Shown here: positions 4,311-43,754 of the stretch, one piece after another
How positions within the stretch are numbered: the stretch's first letter is position 1
How the letters are laid out: the number at the start of each line of letters is the position of its first letter
NCBI GenBank assembly: GCA_040755695.1
Contig: JBFMAK010000001.1
Span: forward strand, 192,637 to 256,636
Reading direction: 5' to 3'
DNA length: 64,000 bases
Source of the DNA: Candidatus Diapherotrites archaeon
GTDB lineage: Archaea > Iainarchaeota > Iainarchaeia > Iainarchaeales > 1-14-0-10-31-34
Position numbers and translations under genes: made by a program
Notes under the pieces: model-generated
The model's input: only the letters and a program-made list of their open reading frames with translations
Database searches by the model: none
Told to the model about the DNA's origin: nothing

Positions 4311-4383
4311 TCCTATTTTTTCTTTTTTCAATTACTATTCTTTTTAATTAATTACCCACTCAATAATTAATTAAATCACAAGT

Positions 4384-4461
4384 TTTCGGCGCAGCCGAAA
4401 TCCTATTATTGTCCTTTCAGGGCAATAATAGTGTGTAGTGTCAACTGATAATATTCAGTTG
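4384..4461 (+). repeat. Chain of three intergenic hairpins before tRNA-Cys
   Basis: Three stem-loops follow one another. TTTCGGC at 4384-4390 pairs with GCCGAAA at 4394-4400. CTATTATTGTCC at 4403-4414 pairs with 4420-4431 (12 bp including one G.T). CAACTGA at 4442-4448 pairs with TCAGTTG at 4455-4461, whose last base is the first base of tRNA-Cys. Nothing in the 150 bases between glutaredoxin and the tRNA looks coding. Confidence 0.85.
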
Positions 4462-4726
4462 CTGGGGTGGCAGAGAGGCCATGCACCCGCCTGCAGTCCC
4501 AAGCCTTTTCTCTTTTTAGGAAAAAGAGAAAAGTCTACGGTCTATCCAAAAGAGAAAAAAAATTGCAGTTTATTATTTTCTTTTTTGGGGCACAATTAAA
4601 ACCAATGGTTTTAATGTGCATTTAATTCCTCCGGGAATTAAATTGCAACGTACCACTTTTTTCTTTTTAAAAAAGAAAAAAGGGGCCGTGAGCGGGAGAT
4701 CGAGGGTTCGAGTCCCTCCCTCAGCT
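4461..4726 (+). tRNA. tRNA-Cys(GCA), interrupted by a 194-nt intron
   Basis: Exon 1 is 4461-4496 and exon 2 is 4691-4726, which includes the T discriminator usual for tRNA-Cys. Joined, they give a 7-bp acceptor (GCTGGGG with CCTCAGC, one G.T), a 3-bp D stem, anticodon stem CCCGC/GCGGG, loop CTGCAGA with anticodon GCA, and T arm GAGGG-TTCGAGT-CCCTC. CCA is not encoded. The intron sits between positions 37 and 38, the canonical archaeal site. The whole tRNA can be folded base by base from the sequence. Confidence 0.9.
4497..4690 (+). other. Hairpin-rich tRNA-Cys intron
   Basis: This 194-nt intron folds as a chain of stem-loops: 4505-4517 with 4521-4533 (13 bp perfect, polypyrimidine/polypurine); 4546-4558 with 4576-4588 (13 bp, one G.T); 4590-4603 with 4607-4619 (13 bp, one bulge); 4620-4629 with 4634-4643 (10 bp perfect); 4656-4668 with 4670-4682 (13 bp perfect). 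It holds no plausible reading frame for a homing enzyme. Removal by the archaeal tRNA splicing endonuclease is inferred from the position. Confidence 0.82.
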
Positions 4727-5057: not shown

Positions 5058-5921
5058 ATGCCAGAAGAAACTCTCCTACTAATAAAAACTGCCTCAGAGA
5101 TCGCCATAAAAAGCCATTTCGTGAGAAACTACTTCACTAAAAAATTAATTAAAAACATAAAGAACTCCCTGAAGGCAAAAGGCATAAAAGCAGAAAAAAT
5201 AATTAGAGGGCAAGGCTTCCTACTCTTATATACAGAAAAAGGGCAGGAAACAATAAAACTTCTGGAAAAGATTTTTGGAATTCACTCAATTGCAAAAACA
5301 AAAGAAAGTTATGTAGAAGACATGATTGATATTAAGCAGGCTGTCTTCTCTTACGCAAAAAAATTCCTGCTCCCGGGAGAAGGCTTTGCCCTGCGCGTTT
5401 CAAGGGAGGGCGAGCACAGCTTTTCTTCACGGGATATTGCAGTACAGTGCGGCAAAAAAATAATGGATTCAATTCCCGGCCTGAAAGTAGACCTTTCAAA
5501 GCCAAAAAAAGAATTGTTCATTGAACTGCATGAAAAGCAGCTTTTATTATATTCAAAAAAGATTTCTGGCCCTAAAGGCCTTCCAGTAGGTGTAGAGGGA
5601 AAGGCTGCAGTCCTGTTCAATGGCACAAAGGATGATTTCACTGCCTCTATTTTGATGATGAAGAGGGGCTGCAGGATTACTGCATTAATTGAAAAGAAGA
5701 ATCCTAAAATAAATAGAACCCTCAAGAAACTGCTGGAGTGGAATTCCTTTAAGCCAATAAAAACAATTTTCTGGAATGAATTGCGGAAGGACAATAGAAT
5801 AAAAGCTCTGGTTTTGCCTTTAACTAAATTGAATAATAAAACGCTGCAGGAAATTGCATCAATAAAAAACAAAAGCAATACTATGGTATTAGAGCCGGCT
5901 CTCTTTTGCTCTCATATTTAA
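5058..5921 (+). CDS. ThiI-like THUMP protein with degenerate PP-loop
   Basis: 287 residues. The N-terminal part follows ThiI, the tRNA 4-thiouridine synthetase: NFLD-like start (LLIKTASEIAIKSHFVRNYF), then THUMP with FALRVSREGEHSFSSRDIA and LSKPKKELFIELHEKQLLLY, and GPKGLPVGVEGKAAVLFNG. Family members continue with a PP-loop SGGxDS that binds ATP. Here the same place reads LFNGTKDDF, with neither the Gly pair nor the Ser, and the protein stops about 90 residues later, short of the usual length near 380 or more. The C-terminal domain is therefore present but eroded. The frame is intact, so RNA binding may persist; sulfur transfer is unlikely. It sits directly upstream of a basic protein and Mre11. 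Confidence 0.75.
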   Translation: MPEETLLLIKTASEIAIKSHFVRNYFTKKLIKNIKNSLKAKGIKAEKIIRGQGFLLLYTEKGQETIKLLEKIFGIHSIAKTKESYVEDMIDIKQAVFSYAKKFLLPGEGFALRVSREGEHSFSSRDIAVQCGKKIMDSIPGLKVDLSKPKKELFIELHEKQLLLYSKKISGPKGLPVGVEGKAAVLFNGTKDDFTASILMMKRGCRITALIEKKNPKINRTLKKLLEWNSFKPIKTIFWNELRKDNRIKALVLPLTKLNNKTLQEIASIKNKSNTMVLEPALFCSHI

Positions 5922-41886: not shown

Positions 41887-41958
41887 GGGCTGGTGGCGAA
41901 ATGGCATCGCACCCCCTTGGCATGGGGGAGGCTCCGGGTTCGAGTCCCGGCCAGTCCA
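41887..41958 (+). tRNA. tRNA-Ala(GGC)
   Basis: Acceptor GGGCTGG with CCAGTCC (one G.T), D arm 41896-41910, anticodon stem CCCCC/GGGGG with loop TTGGCAT (anticodon GGC), T arm CCGGG-TTCGAGT-CCCGG, discriminator A. 72 nt, no intron, no encoded CCA. Confidence 0.95.
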
Positions 41959-41963
41959 TCTAG

Positions 41964-41990
41964 CTTTTCTTTTTTCACAAAAAAGAAAAG
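41964..41990 (+). repeat. Perfect polypyrimidine/polypurine hairpin after tRNA-Ala
   Basis: CTTTTCTTTTTT (41964-41975) pairs perfectly with 41979-41990 around the loop CAC. It starts 5 bases after the tRNA and closely resembles the hairpins at both ends of the tRNA-Cys intron. It could be a terminator or processing signal. Confidence 0.8.
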
Positions 41991-42086
41991 TACAGTCTGC
42001 AAAAGAAAAAAGGGTAATTACCATAAAAGAAATTTTTTTATCCGAATTCTTCCATTAGGTTTTTATTTTATTAATCCTATTTTTTT

Positions 42087-43754
42087 ATGAAAAGAAGAAT
42101 AATTGGTTTTTGCATGGAGAAAAAAGAGGTTCTGCTTGAGAGCATTAGAAGGCTGTTCCAGTTAAATGTCTCGGACGAAGAAATAGTAATTGAACTGCAG
42201 GACGTAGGATTAAGCGCAGAAGATGCAAGAGAACTGATAAGAGAGGCAAGAGGTGAAACCAAAGCACAGCAGGCTGTCCAGCCAAAAAAATTGTCTGAAA
42301 TGACAGCAGAAGAGAGAAGGGATTTCAGGGCGACAAGAAGGGGCGGAAAAGCAGAAGAAATAATGATCCCCCAGGAAGTGCTCAAGCAGGCAGAAAAAGC
42401 AATCTCGCAAAAAGAAAAGCAAACAGAAAAAGAATTGACTGAAGAAGAAGAGCCAGAGGAAGTGGAAGAAGAAGTCAAAGCAGGCCCTCCAAGAAAAACA
42501 AAAGAAAAATTTGCGGGCAGAGAAAAACCAGGGGGCATCTGGGAGAAAGGAATACTTACAACCATAAACGAGAAACTAGAAGAAATTGAAGGAATAGAAG
42601 AAAACATAAATAAGGTAATGGACTCAAAGCTGCAGAAACTGTTCGAGAAAGAAGCAAAAAAGAACAAAGTGCTATTCGATTCAGAGTACTCCCTGCTTTT
42701 GGAAAAAATAAATTCCACTCTAGCGCAGAAAACAGAAGAATTCAACAAGATGATGAAAGCAAAAATGCTGGAATTAGATAAGGCAAGCAAGAACTACCTT
42801 GATTTAATGCAGAAAGAGTCAGCAAAAAAACAGATAACGCAAGGACTAATAGAAGAATTGAATTCCAAGATTGAGGATATAACAAAAACAAGAAAGAAAA
42901 TGCAGGAACAGTTCAGCGCAGAAATAGATAAAGTGAAAGCGCAGTCAGCGAGCTTCAGTGGCAATATTGAAGGCAAAATAGATGAAATGGAGGAAAAAAT
43001 AAATAAGGCATTAGAATTGGAAGTAAAAATAACCGAAGGCCTTGTGGCTGACGCTGAAGACAAAATAAAGGAATTCATTTCGCGGAAAGAAGGGGAAATA
43101 ACAAAAGAGTTCTCCGGCATAAAAGGAAGGCCTGCACAGCAGGAAGACGTAACAAGGTTTCTGGCTGAAGTCAAAAAGCTTGACTCATTCAAGCAAAGCC
43201 TCCAAGACCAGGTAACCCAATCAAAGAATGAACTGGAGAACATTAAAGGTGAATTAAAGAAACTTATTGCAGCCCAAATGGTTGAGGCCTCAACTGAAAC
43301 AGAAAACAAGATCAATGAATTGTTCGAGGAAAGAAAAGACGAACTGAAGGCTTTCGGCAAGGACTTGACAAAAAAACTGAACTTGAATGAGTTCGCCCAG
43401 AAAATGGAGGAACTCAATTTATTCAAGGACCAATTCATTAAAATGATTGACAAGAATGTATCAGAATTAAAGCAGACAAGACAAGAAATAGAAGAGGAAA
43501 CAGACAAGAAATCCAAATTGATTGACTCAAAAATCAATGCAGTAGACAGGAAAATGAAGGAACTGGCAGAATTCGAGAAAAACTTCGCCAAAGAAATGGG
43601 CCTGCAAGTAGAAAAGCTCATTGAAAAAAAGAAGAAGTCAGCAGAAGTAAAAATGGCCCGCAAATTAATCCCAAAAAAAGCCGAAGCCAGAAAACTAGGC
43701 AAGAAAGCCCTGCGCGAAACAATAAAAAAAGTGAAAAGAAAAAGGAAACGCTAA
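42087..43754 (+). CDS. Long coiled-coil protein
   Basis: 555 residues, or 546 if the ATG at 42114 (MEKKEVLLESIRR) is used; neither has an SD sequence. An N-terminal helical motif (IVIELQDVGLSAEDARELI) may be a small binding domain. An acidic low-complexity stretch spans about 110-135. Residues about 150-520 are continuous heptad-rich coiled coil, and the C-terminus (KKVKRKRKR) is strongly basic. I know no close family. It lies between tRNA-Ala and tRNA-Val. A structural or DNA-associated role is a guess. Confidence 0.75.
   Translation: MKRRIIGFCMEKKEVLLESIRRLFQLNVSDEEIVIELQDVGLSAEDARELIREARGETKAQQAVQPKKLSEMTAEERRDFRATRRGGKAEEIMIPQEVLKQAEKAISQKEKQTEKELTEEEEPEEVEEEVKAGPPRKTKEKFAGREKPGGIWEKGILTTINEKLEEIEGIEENINKVMDSKLQKLFEKEAKKNKVLFDSEYSLLLEKINSTLAQKTEEFNKMMKAKMLELDKASKNYLDLMQKESAKKQITQGLIEELNSKIEDITKTRKKMQEQFSAEIDKVKAQSASFSGNIEGKIDEMEEKINKALELEVKITEGLVADAEDKIKEFISRKEGEITKEFSGIKGRPAQQEDVTRFLAEVKKLDSFKQSLQDQVTQSKNELENIKGELKKLIAAQMVEASTETENKINELFEERKDELKAFGKDLTKKLNLNEFAQKMEELNLFKDQFIKMIDKNVSELKQTRQEIEEETDKKSKLIDSKINAVDRKMKELAEFEKNFAKEMGLQVEKLIEKKKKSAEVKMARKLIPKKAEARKLGKKALRETIKKVKRKRKR

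Follow-up and report, generated by a model that had tools for sequence, protein, structure and literature searches.

A probably mobile, triplex-type repeat within and beside tRNA genes of a diapherotrite archaeon

The tRNA-Cys gene of a Candidatus Diapherotrites archaeon, within a contig stretch of 64,000 nucleotides analysed here (the window, to which plain coordinates refer), raises the question of how a tRNA gene comes to hold a 194-nt intron built of hairpins in series. An earlier note, made from the sequence alone, described a real tRNA-Cys at 4461-4726 and offered several origins for its intron. The gene itself is borne out by its cloverleaf, by a BHB motif at the splice junctions, and by tRNA calling with introns allowed, and its parts are as follows.

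4461-4726, + strand: tRNA-Cys(GCA) gene, whole; cloverleaf complete, from reading the sequence and from intron-aware calling
4461..4496, + strand: exon 1, positions 1-37, ending ...CTGCAG
4497..4690, + strand: intron, 194 nt, at 37/38
4691..4726, + strand: exon 2, positions 38-73, including U73
4491..4500, + strand: 5' half of the BHB; central helix CTGC 4491-4494, bulge AG/T 4495-4497 (slash, cut), inner helix CCC 4498-4500
4682..4691, + strand: 3' half of the BHB; inner helix GGG 4682-4684, central helix GCCG 4685-4688, bulge TG/A 4689-4691

The acceptor stem (GCTGGGG/CCTCAGC), D stem (GCA/TGC), anticodon stem (CCCGC/GCGGG), and T arm (GAGGG/CCCTC) are all readable, the anticodon loop CTGCAGA carries the GCA anticodon, and U73 is present. 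The intron occupies the canonical position 37/38, with the length and site originally described, and is bounded by two 3-nt bulges around a 4-bp central helix, CTGC/GCCG, in which three of four pairs are standard and one is a U33xC mismatch; cuts are predicted at 4496/4497 and 4690/4691. ARAGORN with introns allowed returns the identical span and intron length but shifts the anticodon, and none of Rfam, RF00005, and ARAGORN at default recovers the tRNA-Cys as a whole. The pre-tRNA folds with an energy of -104 kcal/mol, against -67.8 +/- 4.7 kcal/mol for shuffles (z = -7.7). The genome has a single PF01974 gene for the splicing endonuclease EndA, a 176-aa ORF of alpha4-like size, and the intron is presumably removed by splicing in the cell. 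Because its longest stop-free stretch is 57 codons, it holds no real reading frame, as had been noted, and it encodes no endonuclease of the homing kind; nor does it match any Rfam family at gathering score, Group I and other Rfam-described introns included.

That the locus might be a pseudogene or an assembly artefact is suggested by nothing but the odd intron, and we give the idea hardly any credence: in a genome estimated to be 99.85% complete, this is the sole tRNA-Cys found (an exon query matches the 4461-4726 locus alone, and no other called tRNA is a tRNA-Cys), its identity features are intact, and three relatives assembled independently (G001-G003) have introns at the same position of the orthologous gene, with a matching upstream gene in G001 and G003. 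The locus is a functional-looking single-copy gene.

The intron was described as exceptionally long. It is unusual by the standard of reviews that give archaeal tRNA introns as 'less than 100 nt' (PMC4033280); by that of its own genome or order it is not. At least 25 of the 44 tRNA genes called in the genome have introns, which range from 20 to 216 nt and with few exceptions sit at 37/38, the calls being drawn from stretches around tRNA candidates so that the tRNA count is a lower bound; two introns, those of tRNA-Arg-TCT (216 nt) and tRNA-Gln-TTG (201 nt), are longer than that of tRNA-Cys. Across the order, many relatives have an orthologous tRNA-Cys with no intron, while in others the intron measures 86-254 nt. 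Published averages are 0.21 introns per archaeal tRNA gene and 0.84 in Thermoproteales (PMC8450103). Nor is the intron singular. BLAST of the tRNA-Cys region against its own genome finds matches in other tRNA introns, in tRNA 3' flanks, and in intergenic DNA, and related repeat modules fill about 15 other tRNA introns as well as following tRNA 3' ends and lying intergenically. Introns of different tRNAs are akin to one another, with 93.5% identity over 62 nt between Cys and Asn and 80% over 163 nt between Gln and Arg.

Read from its sequence, the tRNA-Cys intron is a composite of ~60-nt repeat modules, with two modules in inverted orientation and a double hairpin nested in the spacer of the right one.

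4497..4559, + strand: left module (covariance model [CM] E 4.4e-12); terminus TCCCAAGC 4497-4504, Y1 4505-4517, loop 4518-4520, R1 4521-4533, spacer TCTACGGTCTATCC 4534-4547, third strand R2 4548-4559
4576..4592, + strand: part of the right (inverted) module; third strand Y2 TTTTCTTTTTT 4576-4586, leading portion of the spacer, GGGGCA 4587-4592
4591..4643, + strand: nested double hairpin, a second repeat family; hpA 4591-4618, hpB 4620-4643
4656..4682, - strand: hairpin of the right module (CM E 2.6e-7); Y3 4656-4667, loop 4668-4670, R3 4671-4682

All five of the serial stem-loops described earlier are present. Hairpins 3 and 4 form the nested double hairpin, which splits the spacer of the right module (GGGGCA...ACGTACCAC) and has an 84% copy at C1:394773-394868 of the same genome (G000) by BLAST. 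Folding and sequence show Y2 of the right module also able to pair with R2 of the left. The first and last hairpins, which had been taken for near copies, are indeed of one polypyrimidine/polypurine type, but they belong to two separate inverted modules; the C positions differ between the left Y1 and the right Y3, and each third strand fits its own module. Since each module has its own Y sequence and third strand, local expansion, as the earlier note had suggested, does not explain the pair. Dual inverted modules are also found in the Asp, Glu-TTC, Gln, and Arg-TCT introns, while many copies elsewhere are single. We note that tRNA-Glu(TTC) (L093 1124-1380; G000 C3:46123-46379) apparently has a ~34-nt D-loop intron and a long dual-module intron at 37/38, and this apparent pair of introns led to its being listed under the wrong isotype.

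The modules share one order: terminus (CTGCC or CCAAGCC), Y1, loop, R1, spacer, and third strand R2, over ~60 nt. The arms are A/T-rich and about 8-16 nt long, the first loop is mostly 3-4 nt, and the spacer is mostly 11 or 13 nt and of three types (GTGGTAAGTTGCCCC, GTCTACGGTCTATCC, and GTGTTACGTTATCCC), in each of which the terminus is able to base-pair with the start of the spacer once a C-pyrimidine mismatch at the hairpin foot is passed. The covariance model was built from ten 60-nt modules only, because a MAFFT alignment of unequal stem lengths was out of register. The window has two modules, against none in 20 shuffles. The hairpin covaries, with eight of 15 pairs changed on both sides and 96.7% paired, and its covariation score is reached by 0 of 500 shuffles.

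A mobile element made of hairpins, one of the origins first proposed, comes near what we now regard as the best explanation, but the repeat also has the third strand, which mirrors R1 and, across lineages, covaries with Y1. In parallel orientation R2 complements Y1, as in the rule for intrastrand triplexes. In 27 modules of this genome there are three mismatches between R2 and Y1, against 52.7 when Y1 is shuffled among modules (minimum 35 in 5000 shuffles); in 56 modules from other contigs there are four, against 96 by the same control (minimum 74 in 2000 shuffles), although some modules share ancestry, so that neither this count nor that of 112 modules used below is fully independent. By base, R2 has G for a C of Y1 in 90 of 92 cases and A for a T in 506 of 506, in a tally whose first six positions are partly fixed by the search pattern, and the length of R2 follows that of the stem (rho 0.79). 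A plain direct repeat of R1 is ruled out as the source of R2 by 39 and 41 mismatches in the own-genome and other-contig modules, respectively, where the mirror rule leaves five and four.

The mirror rule is equally valid in tRNA-linked, inverted, and intergenic copies. Mirror copies are hard to make by templated copying, and they are read most naturally as the outcome of selection for contact among three strands; Y1, R1, and R2 may fold as an intrastrand triple helix (R-R-Y on one strand, Y-R-Y on its complement). A purine third strand, as in the sense-strand RNA form, makes a poor RNA triplex. Because the rule extends to tRNA-linked, inverted, and unbiased intergenic copies alike, DNA is the likelier molecule, and the triplex would most likely form as DNA. 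Third strands that covary with their hairpins over a natural set of sequences offer comparative evidence for selected triplex potential in cells.

These results bear on the proposal that the intron grew by local slippage or duplication of one polypyrimidine/polypurine hairpin. It would account for the likeness of the first and last hairpins, the recurrent purine tracts, and the tandem spacer-plus-purine arrays after tRNA-Arg (C1:48553-48707), but slippage cannot produce mirror copies, the left and right Y sequences differ while each keeps its third strand, and the best matches of the left module are in other tRNAs and intergenic DNA (93.5% and 94%); we consider it improbable and largely contradicted already.

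Module placement was recorded for 112 distinct modules, in a sample that includes tRNA-centred loci, so that its tRNA fraction is not a genome-wide estimate. One of these placements is seen in the window beyond the tRNA-Cys.

41959..42011, + strand: second module of the window, directly 3' of tRNA-Ala(GGC) 41887-41958

In all 33 sense modules within introns, Y1 lies 5-8 nt past the 5' splice site, this and the distances below resting on our home-made intron-aware caller, which favours BHB-consistent introns; 10 of the 112 are antisense intron modules. Modules beside tRNA genes point their hairpin terminus at the tRNA, flush (within 4-10 nt) with the 3' end in 18 of 19 cases and with the 5' end in five of five, and among the tRNA-adjacent modules collected the opposite polarity was never flush with a tRNA end. 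An alignment of G045 and G065 also places modules directly upstream of a tRNA. The element thus abuts the tRNA where RNase P, EndA, and tRNase Z cut. Of the 112, 42 are intergenic and unbiased in strand relative to neighbouring genes (14 versus 13). A weaker CM match lies at ~42069-42124, beyond the tRNA-Ala(GGC) module. Elsewhere in the genome, at C1:48553-48707 and C1:394409-394868 (L070 and L079), tandem arrays of spacer plus purine tract, in which one hairpin precedes several third strands, follow tRNA-Arg(TCG), tRNA-Ser(GGA), and tRNA-Pro(GGG).

T-rich arms and a position flush after tRNA 3' ends are what one would expect if the modules were bidirectional terminators or tRNA 3'-end signals. 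We think this very unlikely, as modules are also located within introns and immediately 5' of tRNA genes, and beside protein genes neither orientation is preferred.

Of 75 genomes of the order, 42 hold modules by covariance search at E<=1e-5, against none of 12 genomes of the class outside the order at the same threshold. The archaeon's own genome has about 37 at E<1e-3, and matches at E<=0.01, of which some weaker ones may be chance, occur in 34 of 53 close relatives, with 0 to 77 such matches per genome. Among named GTDB contigs, the spacer pattern is found almost only in Candidatus Diapherotrites or Candidatus ainarchaeum records, the others being a few MAGs labelled Pacearchaeota, Nanoarchaeia, Micrarchaeota, Aenigmatarchaeota, or DPANN, and archaeon GW2011_AR10. 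Turnover is visible within a genus: the left part of the tRNA-Cys intron is not the same in three congeneric species, and a G003 module between two conserved genes is missing at that intergenic position in both G002 and G001, a presence/absence case that could reflect loss. In another family (f13), the tRNA-Cys introns of G041 and G029 (L219 and L226) have hairpins of other kinds, none of them polypyrimidine.

The chief alternative is a structured RNA released by way of tRNA processing. Modules would be genes for, or parts of, a structured noncoding RNA freed by tRNA splicing and by 3' and 5' processing, on the pattern of box C/D RNAs carried in tRNA introns, or of tRNA-sRNA dicistrons, and the third strand would be part of the RNA fold. 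Fixed-orientation, flush contact with tRNA-processing junctions fits this well, as do the strong folding and the covarying hairpin. It sits poorly with intergenic copies that show no strand bias, with inverted copies inside a single intron, with copy numbers from 0 to 77 between genomes and fast turnover within a genus, with a mirror rule that is alike in tRNA-linked and intergenic copies, and with the lack of any Rfam family at gathering score. Given the copies outside tRNA genes and their lack of strand bias, a stable spliced-out RNA is unlikely to be the main reason for the structure, and overall we regard a noncoding RNA as an unlikely, if serious, alternative.

We instead favour, as the reasonably probable reading, a non-autonomous, probably mobile, triplex-type repeat that is tolerated in tRNA genes because EndA removes it. 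Such a repeat would spread unevenly through one DPANN order, settling intergenically, flush at tRNA 3' or 5' ends, or as introns starting from the 5' splice site. Within an intron, the inverted module termini would pair and supply the inner helix of the BHB, so that the single EndA could excise the element and the insertion would be tolerated. The partner of the central helix, 4 nt at the intron 3' end, varies between tRNAs and lies outside the element; it must either be in place beforehand or be gained. We identified no mobilising enzyme for the modules. The genome has five Y1 transposases (PF01797), but their role as mobiliser is unsupported: PF01797 is absent from many module-rich relatives (e.g., G003, G008, G031, and G047), and no modules lie in the flanks of four of the five genes in G000. 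No target-site duplication is demonstrated at the one filled/empty site aligned, where A-rich flanks hide any duplication. A repeat family found in dozens of genomes, both outside tRNA genes and as introns whose splice site adjoins a module terminus, bears on how archaeal tRNA introns arise. We speculate, more tentatively, that the modules represent a new class of archaeal mobile element, an intrastrand triplex that integrates by one fixed end precisely at tRNA-processing junctions (the 5' end, the 37/38 splice site, and the 3' end) and so creates introns, as introners do in eukaryotes.

Among published repeats, the nearest are intrastrand triplex motifs of bacteria, the PIT elements or TM-ECO (Holder et al. 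2015, PMC4666352), which share the order Y arm-loop-R arm-loop-R third strand and the purine motif, and likewise occur as many near-identical intergenic copies, in inverted pairs, and with patchy copy number in close relatives. In contrast, the modules are archaeal and tRNA-linked, with A/T-rich arms of variable sequence and a covarying third strand; the text of the PIT paper makes no mention of tRNA (PMC4666352). The second loop of the modules, mostly 11 or 13 nt, exceeds the 1-6 nt that the PIT finder allowed (PMC4666352) and the 0-10 nt of Hoyne et al., and is therefore outside the ITxF definition, so we describe the modules as working like ITxF/PIT, not as members.

REP/BIME and MITE repeats are, like the modules, short, palindromic, and noncoding, and occur singly or as inverted pairs in intergenic DNA. 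The modules differ in their tRNA-flush placement, their third strand, and the Y1-transposase link, which we did not find, many module-rich genomes having no dedicated Y1 transposase of the REP/RAYT kind; the dual elements do have terminal inverted repeats as in MITEs, but many copies are single. For tRNA introns, transposition is described in Thermoproteales (Fujishima et al. 2010, as reported in PMC4090602 and PMC4033280), where similar introns occur in different tRNAs of one genome and gain is lineage-restricted, as here. The accounts in those two papers describe the Thermoproteales cases as canonical and noncanonical BHB introns only, whereas ours are long and mostly at the canonical position, with a triplex signature and a repeat that is also found outside tRNA genes. 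Sugahara et al. (2012, PMC3293823) likewise modelled intron gain through a mobile element targeting a tRNA gene, although theirs was a 1.8-kb recombinase-bearing insertion and ours is a noncoding element of ~60-200 nt. A search of the literature collection used here for archaeal tRNA introns and miniature inverted repeats together found no paper.

The surroundings of the tRNA-Cys gene have further features. Just upstream, at 4383-4461, are three more hairpins in series (TTTTCGGCGCAGCCGAAA; CTATTATTGTCCTTTCAGGGCAATAATAG; CAACTGATAATATTCAGTTG), the third of which terminates on the first base of the tRNA. Downstream, 5058-5921 codes for a 287-aa ThiI-like protein with ThiI_fer and THUMP domains, in which the match to the ThiI catalytic domain is weak and partial.
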